A DNA stretch of 64,000 nucleotides from Actinomycetota bacterium. Lineage in GTDB: Bacteria; Actinomycetota; Acidimicrobiia; Acidimicrobiales; Ilumatobacteraceae. The notes under the pieces are model-generated. The model did not search any database and had not been told where the DNA came from. It saw only the letters and a program-made list of their open reading frames with translations. Shown here piece by piece: positions 12,896 to 59,710 of the stretch. Numbering within the stretch: the first letter of the stretch is position 1; each line of letters begins with the position of its first letter. Made by a program: the position numbers and the translations under genes. The stretch covers positions 1 through 64,000 of the forward strand of contig WLJO01000001.1 of NCBI GenBank assembly GCA_009701715.1. The letters run 5' to 3'.

Positions 12896-14480
<1,585 letters not shown>

Positions 14481-14484
<4 letters not shown>

Positions 14485-16229
14485 CCGAGGAACCGGCGGG
14501 TTTCGTTCTGGGACGGCGGCAGCAGGAGGTCATCGTTGCTGAAGCCGGCAGGCACCATCGGGAACACCTTCTCGCGCGCATCGACACGGAAGTCGACGAC
14601 CACCGAGCGGTCGTTGATGGAGTTCGCCTTCTCGATCGCGGGCTCAACCTCCTCGGGTGAGTCCACGCGGATACCGACACAACCCATTGCCTCGGCCCAC
14701 TTCACGAAGTCGGGGACCTCCGGAGACAGGTACACCTCGCTGTAGCGCTCCTCGTAGAACATCTCCTGCCACTGGCGGACCATGCCGAGATACGAGTTGT
14801 TGAGGATGGCGACCTTGATCGGGATCCGCTCGACCGAGGCGGTGACGAGCTCCTGGGCGGTCATCTGGAAACAGCCGTCTCCGTCGATGGCCCACACCGT
14901 CTTTTCGGGGTGACCGACCTTGGCACCGATAGCGGCCGGGATCGAGAAGCCCATCGTGCCGAGCCCGCCGGAGTTCACCCAGGTGTAGGGCTCCTCGAAC
15001 TGCCAGTACTGCGATGACCACATCTGGTGCTGGCCCACACCGGACACGAGGATCGTGCCCTTCGGGGCGAGGTCGCGGAGCTTTTCCAGGCAGAACTGCG
15101 GCTTGAGAGCCTCACCGGGCTCGCTCGGCTCGTACGCGAGCGGGAACTGCTCCCGCCAGCCCGAGACCCGGCTGCGCCACGGCCCCACGTCGGCCTGCAC
15201 CTCACCGGCACCGAGCAGGTCCTTGATCACCTTGATGAGTTCCTCGATGACGAGGCGGCAGTCACCGACGATCGGCACGTCCGGGCGACGCACCTTGCCC
15301 TGCTCTGCCGGGTCGATATCGACGTGGATGATCTTGGCCTCGGGGGCAAACGTCGACACCTTGCCGGTGATGCGGTCGTCGAACCGGGCGCCGAGCGCAA
15401 TGAGAAGGTCACTCTTCTGCATCGCGGTGATGGCCGCGGCCGTGCCGTGCATACCGGGCATGCCGAGGTTCAGCGGGTGGCTGTCGGGGAAGGCGCCGCG
15501 CGCCATCAGCGTGGTGACGACCGGAATCTGGGTGAGTTCGGCCAGCTCCCGGAGCGCCTCAGCGGCGCGAGCCTTGAGGATGCCACCACCCACGTAGAGC
15601 ACCGGGCGCTCGCAGGACAGGAGGAGCTTGGCTGCCTCCTTGATCATCTTTGGGTGCCCCTTGGTGACCGGCCGGTAGCCGGGGAGCGAGTCCACCACCT
15701 CGGCGTCCGTGGGCCAGTACCAGTCCATGGTGTTGGTGAGAACGTCCTTGGGGACGTCGACGAGCACCGGGCCGGGGCGACCCGTGCTTGCGAGGTAGAA
15801 GGCCTGACGGATCACCATGGGGAGGTCCTGGGCACTCATCACCAGTTCGTTGTGCTTGGTGACGCTGCGGGTGATGCCGACGGTGTCGCACTCCTGGAAC
15901 GCGTCGGTGCCGATCGCCGTGGTGGGTACCTGACCGGTGATGCAGACCATCGGGATCGAGTCCATGAACGCGTCACACAGGGGCGTAACCATGTTGGTGG
16001 CCGCCGGCCCCGACGTCACCATCGCCACCCCGGGACGGCCCGTGACGTGGGCGTATCCCTCGGCCATGTGTCCGGCACCCTGTTCGTGACGCACGAGGAT
16101 GTGGCGGATCGAGGAATCGAGAAGTGGGTCGTACGCAGGCAGGATGCAGCCGCCGGGCAGGCCGAACATGACCTCGACGTTCTCCATCTCGAGCGCCTTG
16201 ATGAGCGCTTGGGCTCCGGTCAGTTTCAC
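14481..16229 (-). CDS. ilvB: Acetolactate synthase large (catalytic) subunit
   Basis: A 582-residue thiamine diphosphate enzyme that makes acetolactate or acetohydroxybutyrate from pyruvate and 2-ketobutyrate. The catalytic Glu is in [14 protein letters not shown]. The central FAD-binding domain includes [13 protein letters not shown], and the ThDP/Mg motif is [16 protein letters not shown] with NNSYLGMV. It starts at GTG 16229, with TAGGAGG 5 bases upstream. It is the first gene of ilvB-ilvN-ilvC-hydrolase, preceded by an attenuator leader. Confidence 0.97.
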
Positions 16230-16300
16230 GGGACCTCCTACTTCTCTTCTACTCGGGCTTCGGTCGGGGTACGGGTCAGGGTTCTGGATGGTTCGGGTGG

Positions 16301-16331
16301 AAAAAGCAATCGACCTCCCGCCGGGGAGGTC
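16301..16331 (-). terminator. Rho-independent attenuator terminator ahead of ilvB
   Basis: On the minus strand a perfect 8-bp stem (GACCTCCC/GGGAGGTC) with a 4-base loop is followed by GATTGC and five Ts. It lies 32 bases after the stop of the leader peptide and 71 bases upstream of the ilvB start, the position of a transcription attenuator. Confidence 0.8.
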
Positions 16332-16362
16332 AATCAGGCGGTCGCGGCTCCTGCCGGGGCGC

Positions 16363-16410
16363 CTAGATAACGACGACGAGGGCCGTGATCAGCGTTTGGG
16401 CAGGGTACAT
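16363..16410 (-). CDS. ilvB leader peptide (attenuation)
   Basis: A 15-residue peptide, [15 protein letters not shown], whose last nine residues are mainly Leu, Ile and Val, with three consecutive Val codons and Ile before the stop. It lies upstream of ilvB and is followed by a strong intrinsic terminator. Ribosome stalling at these codons when branched-chain aminoacyl-tRNA is scarce would favour an antiterminator. This is the known design of ilv leader attenuation in enteric bacteria and corynebacteria. The ribosome-binding site is weak, and no promoter was assigned. Confidence 0.75.
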
Positions 16411-16569
16411 AAGGGCTGCATTTTGCCATCCCGTTCGGTTTCGCGCAACGTGAACGAGTCCGAGCCCCAGATCTGGCCAAACCCACCCAGACCCCTGCTA
16501 CTGGCTAGCCTTGCGTTGTCCGAAATGGATCTGGGACATCGCCGTCTCCAGGAACCAATAAATGAGGTC

Positions 16570-17901: not shown

Positions 17902-18968
17902 GCGCCCACCGCCTCCACCTGCTCGACGGCCGGCAGCCCCTCACCGGGCTCGCCGGCCGTTTCCGTTTTGGCCGCGGAAGTCGCACCCTCACGCCAACCG
18001 ACGTACCGGCGGTTGAGCCACACGGCCAGCCAGGCGAGGAGTCCCCCGACCAAACAGTCCAAGACGTAGTGCTCCCCGCCGTAGACGAGGGTGAACAGCA
18101 TGATTGCCGGGTACGCAACGAGAATTACCCGTAGCCAGGGCCTCGCCCCACGCCAGAAAAACACACCGATCAGCACAGTGAACGCCATGTGCAGCGAGGG
18201 CATCGCGGCGACGAGGTTCACCAAGTTTTGGCCCTTGTTCCACAGTCGATCGGCGTAGTTCAGGTGGATGTACTTGAGCGCCCTCGTGCCCGGACGGACA
18301 GTGCTGCCCATCAGGTTGAACTTGGCAGCCATCCACGGCGGTGCCGTCGGGTAGAGCAGATATCCGGTCACGCCGAGGGCGATGAGCAGGATCAGCGAGC
18401 GAACCCAGTTGAGCCACCGCGCCTTGTCCCGGAACCACATGAACAGGGCGATGAGGTACACCGTGAAGAAGTGTGTGAGGTAGGTGAGACCCGTCAGGAC
18501 CTCCCACTTCGGCGGGTTCTGGTTGCTCGGCAGGTAGAGATGATCCTGCAGCCACTCGGTGGGTAGACGACCGAAGAAGAGTGCCCGCTCGGCCGTGATC
18601 AGCCGCTTCGCGTTGTGAATCGCCTGCACCGGCGCACTGACTGGCGTCTGCGGGATGAACGTGGGGTTTCCCCAGACGTTGTCGATCGCGCCCCGGGTGT
18701 AGTCATAGAGCACGAAGCACGCCGCCAGCGCGCCAAACCCTCCGATGGCGAGCAGGATCTCCCTGCGATCACGGCCGAGGGACCAGATTGAGGCACCCAG
18801 CGCCATCCACGCGATGAATTGTTCGCGCTCGAGCGGGAGTCCCTTGGTGGTCCACGGCATGCCGTGGACGTATTGGTAGACGAACAAGCTGAGGTACAGC
18901 GAGAGTGCTGTCCAGCGAGCAAGTCTCCACCGCTCGGCGGCGAGGGTCTCCCACCGGACTGCCTGCAT
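17886..18968 (-). CDS. PAP2-family membrane phosphatase or phosphoinositol transferase
   Basis: A 360-residue polytopic protein with about six membrane segments. The phosphatidic-acid-phosphatase core is in the C-terminal half: AAMPSLHMAFTVLI supplies the first catalytic His and GGEHYVLDCLVGG supplies the second His and Asp. The arrangement resembles the Aur1/Ipt1-like PAP2_3 branch, which moves phosphoinositol between lipids. It converges on ino1 with a 16-base overlap, and its ATG overlaps the ilvD stop by one base (TGATG). The inositol-linked role is inferred only from the neighbour. A plain lipid phosphatase is the alternative. Confidence 0.8.
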   Translation of the reverse strand: MQAVRWETLAAERWRLARWTALSLYLSLFVYQYVHGMPWTTKGLPLEREQFIAWMALGASIWSLGRDRREILLAIGGFGALAACFVLYDYTRGAIDNVWGNPTFIPQTPVSAPVQAIHNAKRLITAERALFFGRLPTEWLQDHLYLPSNQNPPKWEVLTGLTYLTHFFTVYLIALFMWFRDKARWLNWVRSLILLIALGVTGYLLYPTAPPWMAAKFNLMGSTVRPGTRALKYIHLNYADRLWNKGQNLVNLVAAMPSLHMAFTVLIGVFFWRGARPWLRVILVAYPAIMLFTLVYGGEHYVLDCLVGGLLAWLAVWLNRRYVGWREGATSAAKTETAGEPGEGLPAVEQVEAVGAYSSS

Positions 18969-20674
18969 CAGAGAACGTTGGTGATTGCGCCCGTCTCCGC
19001 GCCCTGCACCAACTTCGCGTACTTTCCGAGCATCCCCGATGTATAGCGCGCCGGGTTGGGGGTCCAGCCGTCACGGCGGCGGGAAAGTTCCGCCTCATCG
19101 ACGAGCAGGTCCAGTCGCTTGGCGTGCACGTCGACGCGGATGCGGTCGCCGTCCTTCACGAATGCAATGGGGCCGCCGTCCGTGGCCTCCGGCGCGACGT
19201 GCCCAATGCAGAAGCCCCAGGTGCCGCCGCTGAAGCGGCCGTCGGTGATGAGCGCACAGTCCGCCCCGCGGCCGGCTCCCTTGAGTGCTCCGGTGATGGC
19301 GAGCATCTCGCGCATGCCCGGGCCACCCTTGGGGCCCTCGTACCGGATGACGAGCACGGTGCCGGGCTGGATCTTGCCGCCAAGGATCTCCGCCATCGCA
19401 AGTTCCTCGCCATCGAACACGCGGGCGGCGCCCTCGAACGTGCGCTGCTCGTGCGAGAGGCCGGCAACCTTGACCACCGAACCCTTCGGCGCGAGCGAGC
19501 CGGTCAGGATGTTGATGCCGCCCTCGACGTCGATGGGGTTGTCGATCGTGTAGACCACAACGCCATCGGGTGCCGGCGGGTCGAGTCGCGCGAGGTTCTC
19601 GGCCATCGTGAGGCCGGTGACGGTGAGAACGTCGCCGTGCAGCAGGCCGGCGTCGAGCAGGTGCTTCAACACGACCGGCACACCACCGATGCGGTCGAGA
19701 TCGCTCATGTGGAACTTGCCGCCCGGCTTCATGTCCGCGATGTGGGGGACACGCGCCGCAACCCGGTTGAAGTCCTCGAGCTCGAGCGCCACGCCGGCCT
19801 CGTTCGCGAGTGCGAGCAGGTGGAGAACGGCGTTGGTCGACCCGCCGAGTGCCGACGTGACAGCGATCGCGTTCTCGAATGCCTGCTTGGTCATGATCTT
19901 GCGCGGTGTGAGACCGAGGCGGAGCATGTTGACAACCGCCTCGCCGGCGAGCCGGGCATCGTCCTCACGACGACGGTCCACGGCCGGCGGCGACGCCGAG
20001 CCTGGCAGACTCATGCCGAGCGCCTCGGCAATCGAGGACATCGTGTTGGCGGTGAACATGCCGCCGCAGGCGCCCTCACCCGGACAGGCCTTGCGCTCGA
20101 TCTCGCCGAGTTCTTCCTCGGTGATGTGGCCGAGCGCACAGGCGCCCACGGCCTCGAAGACGCTCGTGATGTCCAGTGACTTGCCGTTGTGGTTACCCGG
20201 GAGGATCGACCCGTTGTAGACGAACACACTCGGGAGGTCGAGCCGGGCCGCCGCCATAAGCATCGCCGGAATGCTCTTGTCGCAGCCGGCCAGTCCGACG
20301 AACCCGTCCATCCGCTCGGCGTGCACCACGCACTCCACCGAGTCGGTGATGATCTCCCGGCTCACCAACGAGGCGCGCATGCCCTCGTGGCCCATCGAGA
20401 TGCCGTCGGACACCGTGATGGTCCCGAACTCGAGCGGCACGCCGCCAGCGGTGCGGACGCCCTCCTTGGCGCGCTCGGCGAGCTTGCGCAGCGTCATGTT
20501 GCAGGGCGTCACCTCGTTCCAGGCGTTCGCTATTCCGATCTGTGGCTTAGACCAGTCGGCGTCGGTCAGGCCGACAGCGCGCAGCATGGACCTCGCGGGC
20601 GCTTTCTGCATACCGGTCGTCACATCGTGCGACCTGGGCTTCATGTTCACCGGGGTTCCATCGGGCTGAGACAT
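18968..20674 (-). CDS. ilvD: Dihydroxy-acid dehydratase
   Basis: A 568-residue iron-sulfur enzyme for the third common step of valine and isoleucine synthesis. The cluster-binding cysteines are in [26 protein letters not shown] and [18 protein letters not shown]. The C-terminal domain has [22 protein letters not shown] 20674 ([15 protein letters not shown]) was chosen; a GTG six bases upstream is also possible. It lies 2.3 kb from the ilvBNC operon on the same strand and is transcribed separately. The PAP2 gene is coupled to its end. Confidence 0.96.
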
Positions 20675-20832
20675 GGACACGAAGTTACCCCTCAGCACGA
20701 CGCAAGCGGGTAGTGGGCCCACCCGCCGGCCCGCGGCGCACCGTCGGGCGCACCCCGTCCGGGAACGTCGCCCGCGTCCCCAACCGCCACCTGCGCCGAA
20801 TACGGCAGGACGCTGATCTAGCGTTCCCGGTG

Positions 20833-21864
20833 ATGTCCGCGACGCGCCGTGTCTTGCTGCCCATCGCGCTCGCCGTCGGGGCAAGTGCCTGCACGCCCAC
20901 CAATTTGTCCATCGGTCCGGACACCACGATCCCGCAGACGACGCTGATCCGCATCACGCCCGAGACCGCTGCTCCACCCACCACCCCGATGGTCACTGCG
21001 TACCCGACAATCCCGCCAGTGACCGCCGTCGTGCCGTACTGGTCACCGGTCGGCTGGACAATCCCGCAGATCCGTGTCTTCCTGGCGATGGTCGAGTCTG
21101 CGCTGACCGACCTCGGGACCGAACACACCATGGACAGCACAAACGGGATCGCAACGCTCGACAACGGCACGTCGCTGGACCTCACACTGCTCGCGGCTGA
21201 GCTCACGCTCGTGCCAGGGTCGATGTGGCAGAAGACGGTCTCGACCTACCTCGGCACCATGCTCAGCCCCGATCGGGCCGACACGGCATTCACGTTCGAG
21301 ATCGCCCAGTCGCTCCTGCGCGTCCGTGTCGGCACCCTCGGATCGCTCGGGCTCTCGGTGGACCAGGGTGTCGTTCAGCCGATCGCCGATGACCTCGTCG
21401 TAGCCGTCTGTGTGGAGCAGTCCACCTCAACCACGTTCCTCACGCCCGCGCAGGTGGCGGTGTGGGGCAAGAGCCCGGAGGAAATCGTCGCGCTGGCGAT
21501 CTCCCAGACACTCGGCCGCCCGATCAGGACCGAGCAGGCGGGCCCCTTCACCGTTGTCACGGGCGACCAGTTCGCCTCGTCGCGCATCCTCGACCCGAGC
21601 ATGGTGATGAAGTCCTCACCGCCGGATGGGTTCCTCGTCTCCATCCCGAGCATCGACCAGTTCCTCGCCGTCCGTGTAGATGCAGACCTCACGATCGCAA
21701 CGATCAACCTGCTCGTCTCGCGGATCGCCGAGGACTTCAACGACCTGAACAATCCGGCGAGCCCCGACCTGTACTGGTGGAGGAACGGCGGCGTAACAGT
21801 CCTGCACCCGCAGGGGTCCGAGATCGCCATACCGACCGACCTCCAGGCCCTCATCGCGGCCTGA
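20833..21864 (+). CDS. Lipoprotein of unknown function (weak DUF1444 resemblance)
   Basis: A 343-residue protein with signal peptide [20 protein letters not shown] ending in a lipobox Cys, then a Thr/Pro-rich linker of about 50 residues. The globular domain includes [14 protein letters not shown] and [18 protein letters not shown], which loosely recalls the DUF1444 (YtpQ) pattern. No catalytic motif is evident. It should be anchored to the outer face of the membrane. ATG 20833 gives a textbook signal peptide. It is divergent from ilvD. Confidence 0.65.
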
Positions 21865-58467: not shown

Positions 58468-59399
58468 TGGATTCCAACCAGTTGGTCGGGGTGTGGTGCA
58501 GCATAGAACGCTGCTTCGAATTCGGCGGGTGGGACGTCGCCGCAGTGGCCGTGGAGGCGTGTCGTGTTGTGCCAGTGGACCCAGGCGAGGGTGCCCAGTT
58601 CGACGTCCTCGACCGTCTCCCATGGGCCTTGCTGGGGGCCGCGGATGAGTTCGGTTTTGTAGTAGCCGTTGACCGTCTCGGCCAGCGCGTTGTCATACGA
58701 ATCGCCGACGGTGCCGATCGACGGAACCGCGCCGAGCTCCGCGAGTCGTTCACCGAAACGCACGCTGGTGAATTGCGACCCGGCGTCGGAATGTGTCACC
58801 AACCCTTCGAGTCGGGTGCCGCGTGACCATGACGCCATCGACAGTGCGTCGAGGACCATGTCGGTGCGCATGTGCGCCGCGACGCGCCAACCGACGATCA
58901 TCCGGCTGTAGGCGTCGGTGATGAAACAGACGTACGCGACACCCGACCAGGTCGCCACGTAGGTGATGTCGGTGAGCCACAGACGGTTCGGGCGATCCGC
59001 GGTGAAGTCACGTTTCACCAGATCCGGTGCCCGCGCCGCGCTGTCGTCGCGGATCGTGGTCCGCACCCGACGCATCCTCGTGGCACCCTTGATCTGCATG
59101 GCCCGCATCAGGCGGGCGACCTGATCCCGGCCGATCTGATGGCCGTCGCGCAGCGCGGCCTTCCACAGTTTGTGCGCCCCGTAGACCCGGTAGTTGACCG
59201 TCCACAACGCGAGCAGGACCGGCTGCCACACGGCGTCCTGGATCGCTCTCGCGGACAGTGGACGGGTCTTGCGTGCGTAGTAGGTGGAAGGGGCGATCTT
59301 GCAGTCATGCGCGGTGAGCACACGACAGATCGGCTCGACCCCGAACCGTTCCTTGTTGACGTCGATGAACTCGACTATCGCTTCGAGCGGCGGTCGAGC
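58464..59399 (-). CDS. IS3-family transposase OrfB
   Basis: The catalytic part of the IS3 transposase. It has RFGVEPICRVLTAHDCKIAP, then the DDE core: RLWLTDITYV (Asp), GLVTHSDAGSQFTS (Asp) and GDSYDNALAETVNGYYKTEL (Glu). The frame is open further upstream, but the protein is expected to be made by -1 frameshifting from OrfA near 59.38 kb, where OrfA ends ELDRRSKR and OrfB continues with AIVEFID. It is full length. Confidence 0.9.
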   Translation of the reverse strand, partial: ARPPLEAIVEFIDVNKERFGVEPICRVLTAHDCKIAPSTYYARKTRPLSARAIQDAVWQPVLLALWTVNYRVYGAHKLWKAALRDGHQIGRDQVARLMRAMQIKGATRMRRVRTTIRDDSAARAPDLVKRDFTADRPNRLWLTDITYVATWSGVAYVCFITDAYSRMIVGWRVAAHMRTDMVLDALSMASWSRGTRLEGLVTHSDAGSQFTSVRFGERLAELGAVPSIGTVGDSYDNALAETVNGYYKTELIRGPQQGPWETVEDVELGTLAWVHWHNTTRLHGHCGDVPPAEFEAAFYAAPHPDQLVGIQ

Positions 59400-59710
59400 T
59401 CCGCCCCGAAGAAAGACGCTGCGGCTTCCAAGATCCCGTTCACCCGTCGCAACTCGCGGTTCTCGGCCTCCAGCTCGCGCATCCGCTGCCGGTCCTCGGT
59501 CGTCAGGCCGGCCTTCTCGCCGGCGTCGATGTCGGCCTGGCGCACCCACTGGCGAACCGACTCGACCCCGTAGCCCAACTGGTCCGCGATCCGTTGCACC
59601 GCCGCGTATCCGCGGCCCTCCTCGCGAGCCAACAGGACCAACCGCACAGCCTGTTCCTTCTGCTGCTGCGTGTACCGCCGATTCTTCAGCAGAACCTTCT
59701 TCGATGACAT
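59375..59710 (-). CDS. IS3-family transposase OrfA
   Basis: A 111-residue DNA-binding protein with a helix-turn-helix (YTQQQKEQAVRLVLLAREEG, then GYGVESVRQWVRQADIDAGE) and a leucine-zipper-like segment (MRELEAENRELRRVNGILEA). It overlaps OrfB and supplies the N-terminus of the frameshifted transposase. ATG 59710 follows GAGGAGAGTGCC. Confidence 0.9.
   Translation of the reverse strand: MSSKKVLLKNRRYTQQQKEQAVRLVLLAREEGRGYAAVQRIADQLGYGVESVRQWVRQADIDAGEKAGLTTEDRQRMRELEAENRELRRVNGILEAAASFFGAELDRRSKR

Follow-up and report, generated by a model that had tools for sequence, protein, structure and literature searches.

In the trp, ilv and leu attenuators of Escherichia coli, the 2:3 antiterminator and the 3:4 terminator have bases in common, and the leader is furnished with a Shine-Dalgarno (SD) sequence. 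Leaderless polycysteine leaders of mycobacteria were reportedly described by Canestrari in 2020. Among the Actinomycetota, leader peptides followed by terminators were predicted upstream of ilvB in Corynebacterium, Mycobacterium and Streptomyces in the relevant part of an analysis from 2005 (Seliverstov et al. 2005, PMC1262725). In the portions of the later papers on which we draw here, the ilvB-II motif of Corynebacterium has reporter support (PMC10272879), and the C. glutamicum attenuator, whose leader starts one nucleotide from the transcript start, is supported by mutations (PMC11857589). For M. tuberculosis ilvB1, replacement of the leader residues LVVI by AAAA resulted in low, inhibitor-independent reporter expression, while disruption of the terminator eased the vulnerability of ilvB1 (PMC13236596, in the part considered). 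Counting against attenuation is a statement in the 2005 paper that replacing the possible regulatory codons of S. coelicolor ilvBNC had no effect (PMC1262725, same part). We found no report in the open-access literature of such leaders in the Acidimicrobiia, the class to which the DNA described here belongs.

The window analysed is a stretch of 64,000 nucleotides from a member of the Ilumatobacteraceae (order Acidimicrobiales; contig WLJO01000001.1). The original prediction placed a 15-codon ORF ending in LITALVVVI ahead of ilvBNC, and this ORF is indeed present at 16410-16363, although on the minus strand, which had been left unstated; direct reading places the leader ORF and hairpins (16301-16410) and the downstream ilvBNC genes all on that strand. 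The ORF starts with ATG at 16410 and ends with TAG (16365-16363); its final nine codons read LITALVVVI, the L/I/V run occupies codons 11-15, and leucine, isoleucine and valine account for seven of the 15 codons. An extended -10 promoter-like motif, ATGGCAAAAT (16420-16429), ends 9 nt before the ATG.

Two hairpins follow. The first, P2, is predicted at 16335-16365 from its fold and from covariation in relatives; it opens on the stop codon itself, pairing TAGGCG with CGCCTG around an inner CGGC/GCCG helix. The second (16307-16336) is a putative intrinsic terminator with the core GACCTCCC/GGGAGGTC, which covaries in relatives and is followed by the T-run CTTTTT (16301-16306). The perfect 8-bp stem with a T-run noted originally was recovered (16331-16324 with 16319-16312), but it begins 31 rather than 32 bases after the leader stop, and wobbles extend the hairpin to 13 pairs. 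The SD sequence of ilvB, AGGAGG, lies at 16234-16239, and the terminator hairpin ends 77 nt before the gene (median of 76 nt in relatives).

The genes downstream were assigned by NCBIfam models. They are ilvB, encoding the acetolactate synthase large subunit from a GTG start at 16229 (14481-16229; NF005860, 911.5 bits, cut-off 881), ilvN, encoding the small subunit (13957-14484; NF008864, 188.3 bits, cut-off 119), and ilvC, encoding ketol-acid reductoisomerase (12896-13924; NF004017, 568.9 bits, cut-off 336). Elsewhere in the window, an ilvD-like gene was seen by eye at 18968-20884 on the minus strand, and the covariance model described below finds no leader ahead of it. Rfam furthermore matches an ALIL pseudoknot at 59289-59420 on the same strand (69.1 bits, gathering score 50), a structure familiar from IS3-type transposase frameshifting; this suggests an insertion element there.

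In order to judge how far chance could account for this arrangement, both strands of the window were scanned for a short ORF with at least six L/I/V among its last nine codons together with a stem of at least 8 bp and a T-run. The combination occurs once in the 64 kb and in none of 20 simulated first-order Markov windows of the same length. A terminator-like site at laxer criteria is, by itself, not rare (one found against 0.6 expected in 1.5 kb), and the fold of 16290-16420 has a modest z-score of -1.75; it is conservation that carries the case.

In all, 131 ilvB loci were gathered (80 named, 31 whole-genome and 20 upstream regions), a set that holds the window twice (L001 and L082) and some species from both collections. 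Three loci with too little upstream sequence were dropped, leaving 128 upstream regions from the Acidimicrobiales, and 115 of these possess both a short ORF whose last seven codons include four or more L/I/V and a T-run hairpin no more than 60 nt from the stop of that ORF. Among the other 13, ten match a covariance model, R1, although five of these ten were in its training set; only three of the 128 (L043, L063 and L065) show neither. The original prediction named the loss of the codon run or of the terminator in close relatives as grounds for abandoning it, and the pattern found is one of retention. The nearest relative, G001 of the same genus (IlvB 93-95% identical over two pieces), has the leader MSTAKAFPTALVVVL and an identical terminator core. 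Codon identity and choice are kept there along with the terminator, and the reading of a leader peptide with a terminator is well supported. Leaders in the relatives have a median length of 15 codons, and the distance from stop to terminator ranges from 27 to 49 nt, with the stop hairpin absorbing most of this variation.

R1 and its alignment were built from 98 of 99 representatives (L068 was left out). The covariance search in related genomes that had been proposed as a check returned matches in 240 of the 248 genomes of the order. Across the phylum, matches were obtained in 79 of 296 genomes, a tally that includes some weaker matches located before an unrelated gene or lacking a leader (for example L182, L187, L188, L191, L195, L203 and L204). 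The small genomes of one family (L196, L197 and L198, from G331, G271 and G263) keep a terminator before ilvB while no leader ORF was called at the stop position of the model; leader decay or a shifted frame is possible in these. Several public MAG records that bear the title Bifidobacterium breve or Ferrithrix thermotolerans (L014, L018, L032, L034 and L009) encode an IlvB 81-86% identical to that of the window behind leaders of the Acidimicrobiales type; these titles look wrong.

The leaders display a distinctive codon choice. In a structural set of 109 unique regions, obtained by omitting seven of the 128 that have no called terminator within 60 nt and collapsing identical regions, GTA makes up 198 of the 306 valine codons found among the final seven codons of the leaders; it is rare in the ilvB genes themselves, at 2.0% of 4546 valine codons (91 loci). 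GTA occupies position -4 from the leader stop in 89 of the 109 regions and position -3 in 65. The leader in the window is devoid of it, its valines being encoded by GTC GTC GTT, and the leader of the sister species has one.

An unsupervised search, covering for each leader a stretch of 115 bases whose end lies 15 bases ahead of the stop, recovered, upstream of 107 leaders, the motif T-G-n-C-A-n-A-C/A-T (likelihood 332, against 15-24 for shuffled sequences). In 91 of the 107, a distance of 6-10 nt separates this extended -10 motif from the first in-frame start codon downstream. The usual distance between a -10 element and its start site would have transcription begin at, or a few bases from, the start codon of the leader. 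The leader mRNA is thus probably leaderless, i.e. devoid of a 5' UTR.

The two hairpins are also conserved. The best contiguous helix of the stop hairpin has a mean length of 8.5 bp compared to 5.0 bp in shuffled sequences, reaching at least 6 bp in 95% of regions (30% when shuffled), and it begins a median of 1 nt from the first base of the stop codon. With folding confined to the segment between stop and terminator, the gap between the two hairpins measured 0-5 nt in 109 of 109 regions; shuffled controls scattered up to 36 nt, yet 57% of them (301 of 529) also fell within 0-5 nt. In the contiguous-helix search, the gap was zero or more in 99 of the 109 and negative in ten. Covariation is extensive, as both sides change in 16 of the 19 pairs of the stop hairpin and terminator, with 198 double-change cells compared to 65 in shuffled alignments and 29-53 in controls that slide the partner by 1-3 columns, and with 88% paired cells against 33-56% in slid controls. 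In the window, the stop hairpin and terminator share 2 nt, and the stop hairpin is weaker than that of the sister species (-16.3 versus -23.2 kcal/mol).

Of 30 ilvB loci examined from another class of the phylum, 19 have a best helix whose end is -1 to 2 nt from the terminator, compared to 65 of 300 shuffled controls. Abutment is therefore not special to the Acidimicrobiales. By eye, the 5' arm of the helix comes after a CTCGTA-type codon run in many of these 30 loci. Two loci outside the order (L163 and L164, from G313 and G109) have, again by eye, a terminator-like hairpin with no gap to the stop hairpin and, within about 10 nt after it, a GGAGG; control at these loci could act on translation.

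The original prediction also proposed checking for an alternative antiterminator between the leader stop and the terminator (16331 to 16363). The hairpin at 16365-16335, which it missed, does occupy this interval; however, we found no conserved antiterminator sharing bases with the terminator arms when duplexes between segments were compared in native form and with partners permuted among species. The segments comprised the leader, its last seven codons, both P2 arms, both terminator arms and the T-run tail. Only P2 with itself (z of about -30) and the terminator with itself (about -35) rose above background, while all other pairings lay within about 1.2 standard deviations of it or were weaker, and a classical overlapping antiterminator is accordingly not supported. 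Consensus folding likewise revealed no further conserved pairing, with nothing paired in the last 33 bases of the leader. With a ribosome positioned either on the L/I/V codons or on the stop, the terminator has a predicted probability of about 0.99, and a switch is thus not expected from equilibrium folding.

Two further candidates for a regulatory element were set aside. A register-slip antiterminator, in which GGGCG would pair with either CGCCC, was seen by eye in several leuA leaders but not in those of ilvB; it was not counted. A second leader ORF within the terminator (31 aa, 16333-16238) does not have its start codons kept in the relatives inspected by eye.

Within the genome of the window, R1 gives three convincing matches, of which the window itself ranks second. 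The best precedes a citramalate synthase gene (TIGR00977, 603.5 bits, cut-off 450), whose leader MTSLFSSIIIIP contains isoleucine codons, and the third precedes leuA (NF002991, 771.9 bits, cut-off 455), whose leader reads MRNLLGLLLLT. Relatives repeat this pattern: citramalate synthase is preceded by leaders with III or IIII, leuA by leaders with runs of leucine and, in some relatives, leuB by leaders that mix V and I (the identity of leuB was verified for two). In 21 of 22 sister leaders the stop hairpin lies 0-5 nt from the terminator; the remaining one (leuA, L184, gap of 19 nt) is a mis-called hairpin. The citramalate synthase leaders have the stem core GCCGCCC, and we found no report of leaders of this kind before that gene in the open-access literature. 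Rfam searches of six sister loci returned no relevant family. Close behind one leuB leader, on the opposite strand, lies a cobalamin riboswitch (L166:1670-1810, plus strand; 37.8 bits, gathering score 31.5).

Taken from sequence comparison, an attenuation role for this region is very likely, and we hold it highly probable that the leader is a transcription attenuator controlling ilvBNC by sensing charged leucyl-, valyl- and isoleucyl-tRNA. The transcript would begin with the leader ATG or only a few bases away from it, and a ribosome would load onto its 5' end while it is still being synthesised. Counted from the first base of the P-site codon, the leading edge of a ribosome is about 15 nt ahead. 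With CTC-GTA-GTA in the A site, this footprint would bring the edge to -3 to +3 relative to the stop; with the stop codon in the A site, the edge would be at +12. The stop hairpin is free in the first position and has its 5' arm covered in the second, and it is thus the element whose formation would report starvation. When branched-chain amino acids are plentiful, a ribosome at the TAG would cover about 12 nt downstream and, with them, the hairpin's 5' arm; the stop hairpin could then not form, the terminator would fold and transcription would stop. When they are scarce, the ribosome would wait at the L/V/I codons and the stop hairpin would form directly behind RNA polymerase, whereupon the terminator would fail and ilvBNC would be transcribed. 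Several observations count against attenuation, namely the flat terminator probability of about 0.99, the lack of specific complementarity between the leader or P2 arms and the terminator arms, the weaker stop hairpin in the window, the lack of GTA in its leader and the three relatives that do not match.

As to how the stop hairpin acts, our preferred reading is that what would count is its position next to the terminator base (0-5 nt away), and not any bases that the two have in common. In a bolder and rather doubtful form of this reading, its helix might, for example, not fit into the RNA exit channel as the base of the terminator closes. A somewhat unlikely alternative is a competition between the hairpin near the stop and the terminator for a few boundary bases, with the ribosome deciding between them. 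As a precedent, mutations support an overlap at the trinucleotide GCC in the C. glutamicum ilvBNC attenuator, in the part of the report considered (PMC11857589), and the 2 nt shared in the window together with the ten negative gaps among 109 relatives would fit such a competition. The other 99 relatives, however, have no overlap, the arms of P2 and the terminator show no specific complementarity, and loss of the few contested wobble pairs in the window would still leave a terminator of 11 pairs.

Pause hairpins belong to classical attenuators, and the stop hairpin might be one, holding RNA polymerase for the ribosome while a separate antiterminator switches. A hairpin just upstream would indeed put the pause inside the 5' arm of the terminator, but neither consensus folding nor the native-versus-permuted duplex energies reveal any other conserved pairing that could do the switching, and we consider this account improbable.

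Control at the level of translation, in which the hairpin with its GGGAGG arm would alter ribosome access to ilvB and transcription would not be ended, appears very unlikely. The 5' arm of the terminator, GACCTCC, could pair with the SD region of ilvB (AGGAGGTC), and at L163 and L164 GGAGG stands only about 10 nt past the hairpin. Nevertheless, the hairpin in the window has a T-run and ends at a distance from ilvB that is typical of the relatives, and the citramalate synthase leaders employ another stem core. The related idea that the CCTCCC of the terminator is an anti-SD element was dropped, since citramalate synthase and leuA sister leaders have different cores and these genomes contain comparable CCTCCC/GGGAGG hairpins at other sites (e.g. 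after a tRNA-like sequence, L135, by eye). Finally, a chance ORF before an ordinary constitutive terminator or a riboswitch is extremely improbable: short ORFs are common and a lax terminator-like match is not rare, but conservation, codon bias and pathway-matched paralogues all speak against it, and an Rfam search of the window leader found no riboswitch, T-box or ppGpp family at gathering score, the sole match being a chance one to a lncRNA (E of 3.2).

The probable attenuator has implications beyond this locus. It would bring attenuation to an entire, mostly uncultured order of the Actinomycetota, in which one leader architecture is reused at different steps of a pathway with its codons retuned to the product (L/I/V, Ile, Leu or Val/Ile). 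Since the helices abut rather than overlap, the antiterminator and the terminator can be told apart in hundreds of genomes. Should abutment by itself prevent termination, this would constitute a different physical rule for the switching of terminators; such a switch, acting without shared bases and with a geometry common to branched-chain leaders across the Actinomycetota, is a tentative and rather doubtful proposal.

Compared with the systems described previously, the actinobacterial ilvB, leuS and leuA leaders of Seliverstov et al. likewise have I/V/L runs and terminators before ilvB and Leu-rich leaders before leuA (PMC1262725, in the part considered). Their LEU element of leuA is a pseudoknot in which the Leu codon run pairs with the leuA SD; in the leuA leader here, a stop hairpin and a terminator are predicted. 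Furthermore, the results section of that paper describes no citramalate synthase or leuB leader, both of which were found here, the latter in some relatives. The closest likeness in the portions considered is to Corynebacterium ilvB-II and the C. glutamicum attenuator, which share with this locus a leader of 15-17 codons rich in L/I/V, a terminator with a U-run and an adjoining hairpin (PMC10272879, PMC11857589). The leader described here, with 15 codons and a predicted start 9 nt past the -10 motif, has the L/I/V-enriched uORF and probably also the leaderless start of ilvB-II. P1 of ilvB-II spans most of the uORF, while no conserved leader-internal pairing was found here, and the C. glutamicum antiterminator shares GCC with its terminator, while the hairpin here opens at the stop and mostly does not overlap in relatives.

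The ilvB1NC leader of M. tuberculosis, compared by description only, resembles the present one in its L/V/V/I codons (including GUA), in the terminator upstream of ilvB and in the distinction between a ribosome at the stop and one at a regulatory codon; it is a 166-nt leader RNA with mutually exclusive predicted hairpins (PMC13236596, in the part considered). The mycobacterial polycysteine leaders are likewise leaderless short-ORF attenuators, but they employ cysteine codons and are described as attenuating translation (PMC13236596, same part). With the trp, ilv and leu attenuators of E. coli, this locus would have in common the stalling of a ribosome at regulatory codons before a terminator. 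The original prediction called the layout classic, a description that suits the leader codons and the terminator; the stop hairpin, in contrast, abuts the terminator, no conserved base-sharing antiterminator was found, and the probable lack of a 5' UTR and of a leader SD departs from the enterobacterial classic. What is new here, in our reading, is a predicted leaderless attenuator in which a stop-codon hairpin abuts the terminator and which belongs to a codon-matched set of leaders.
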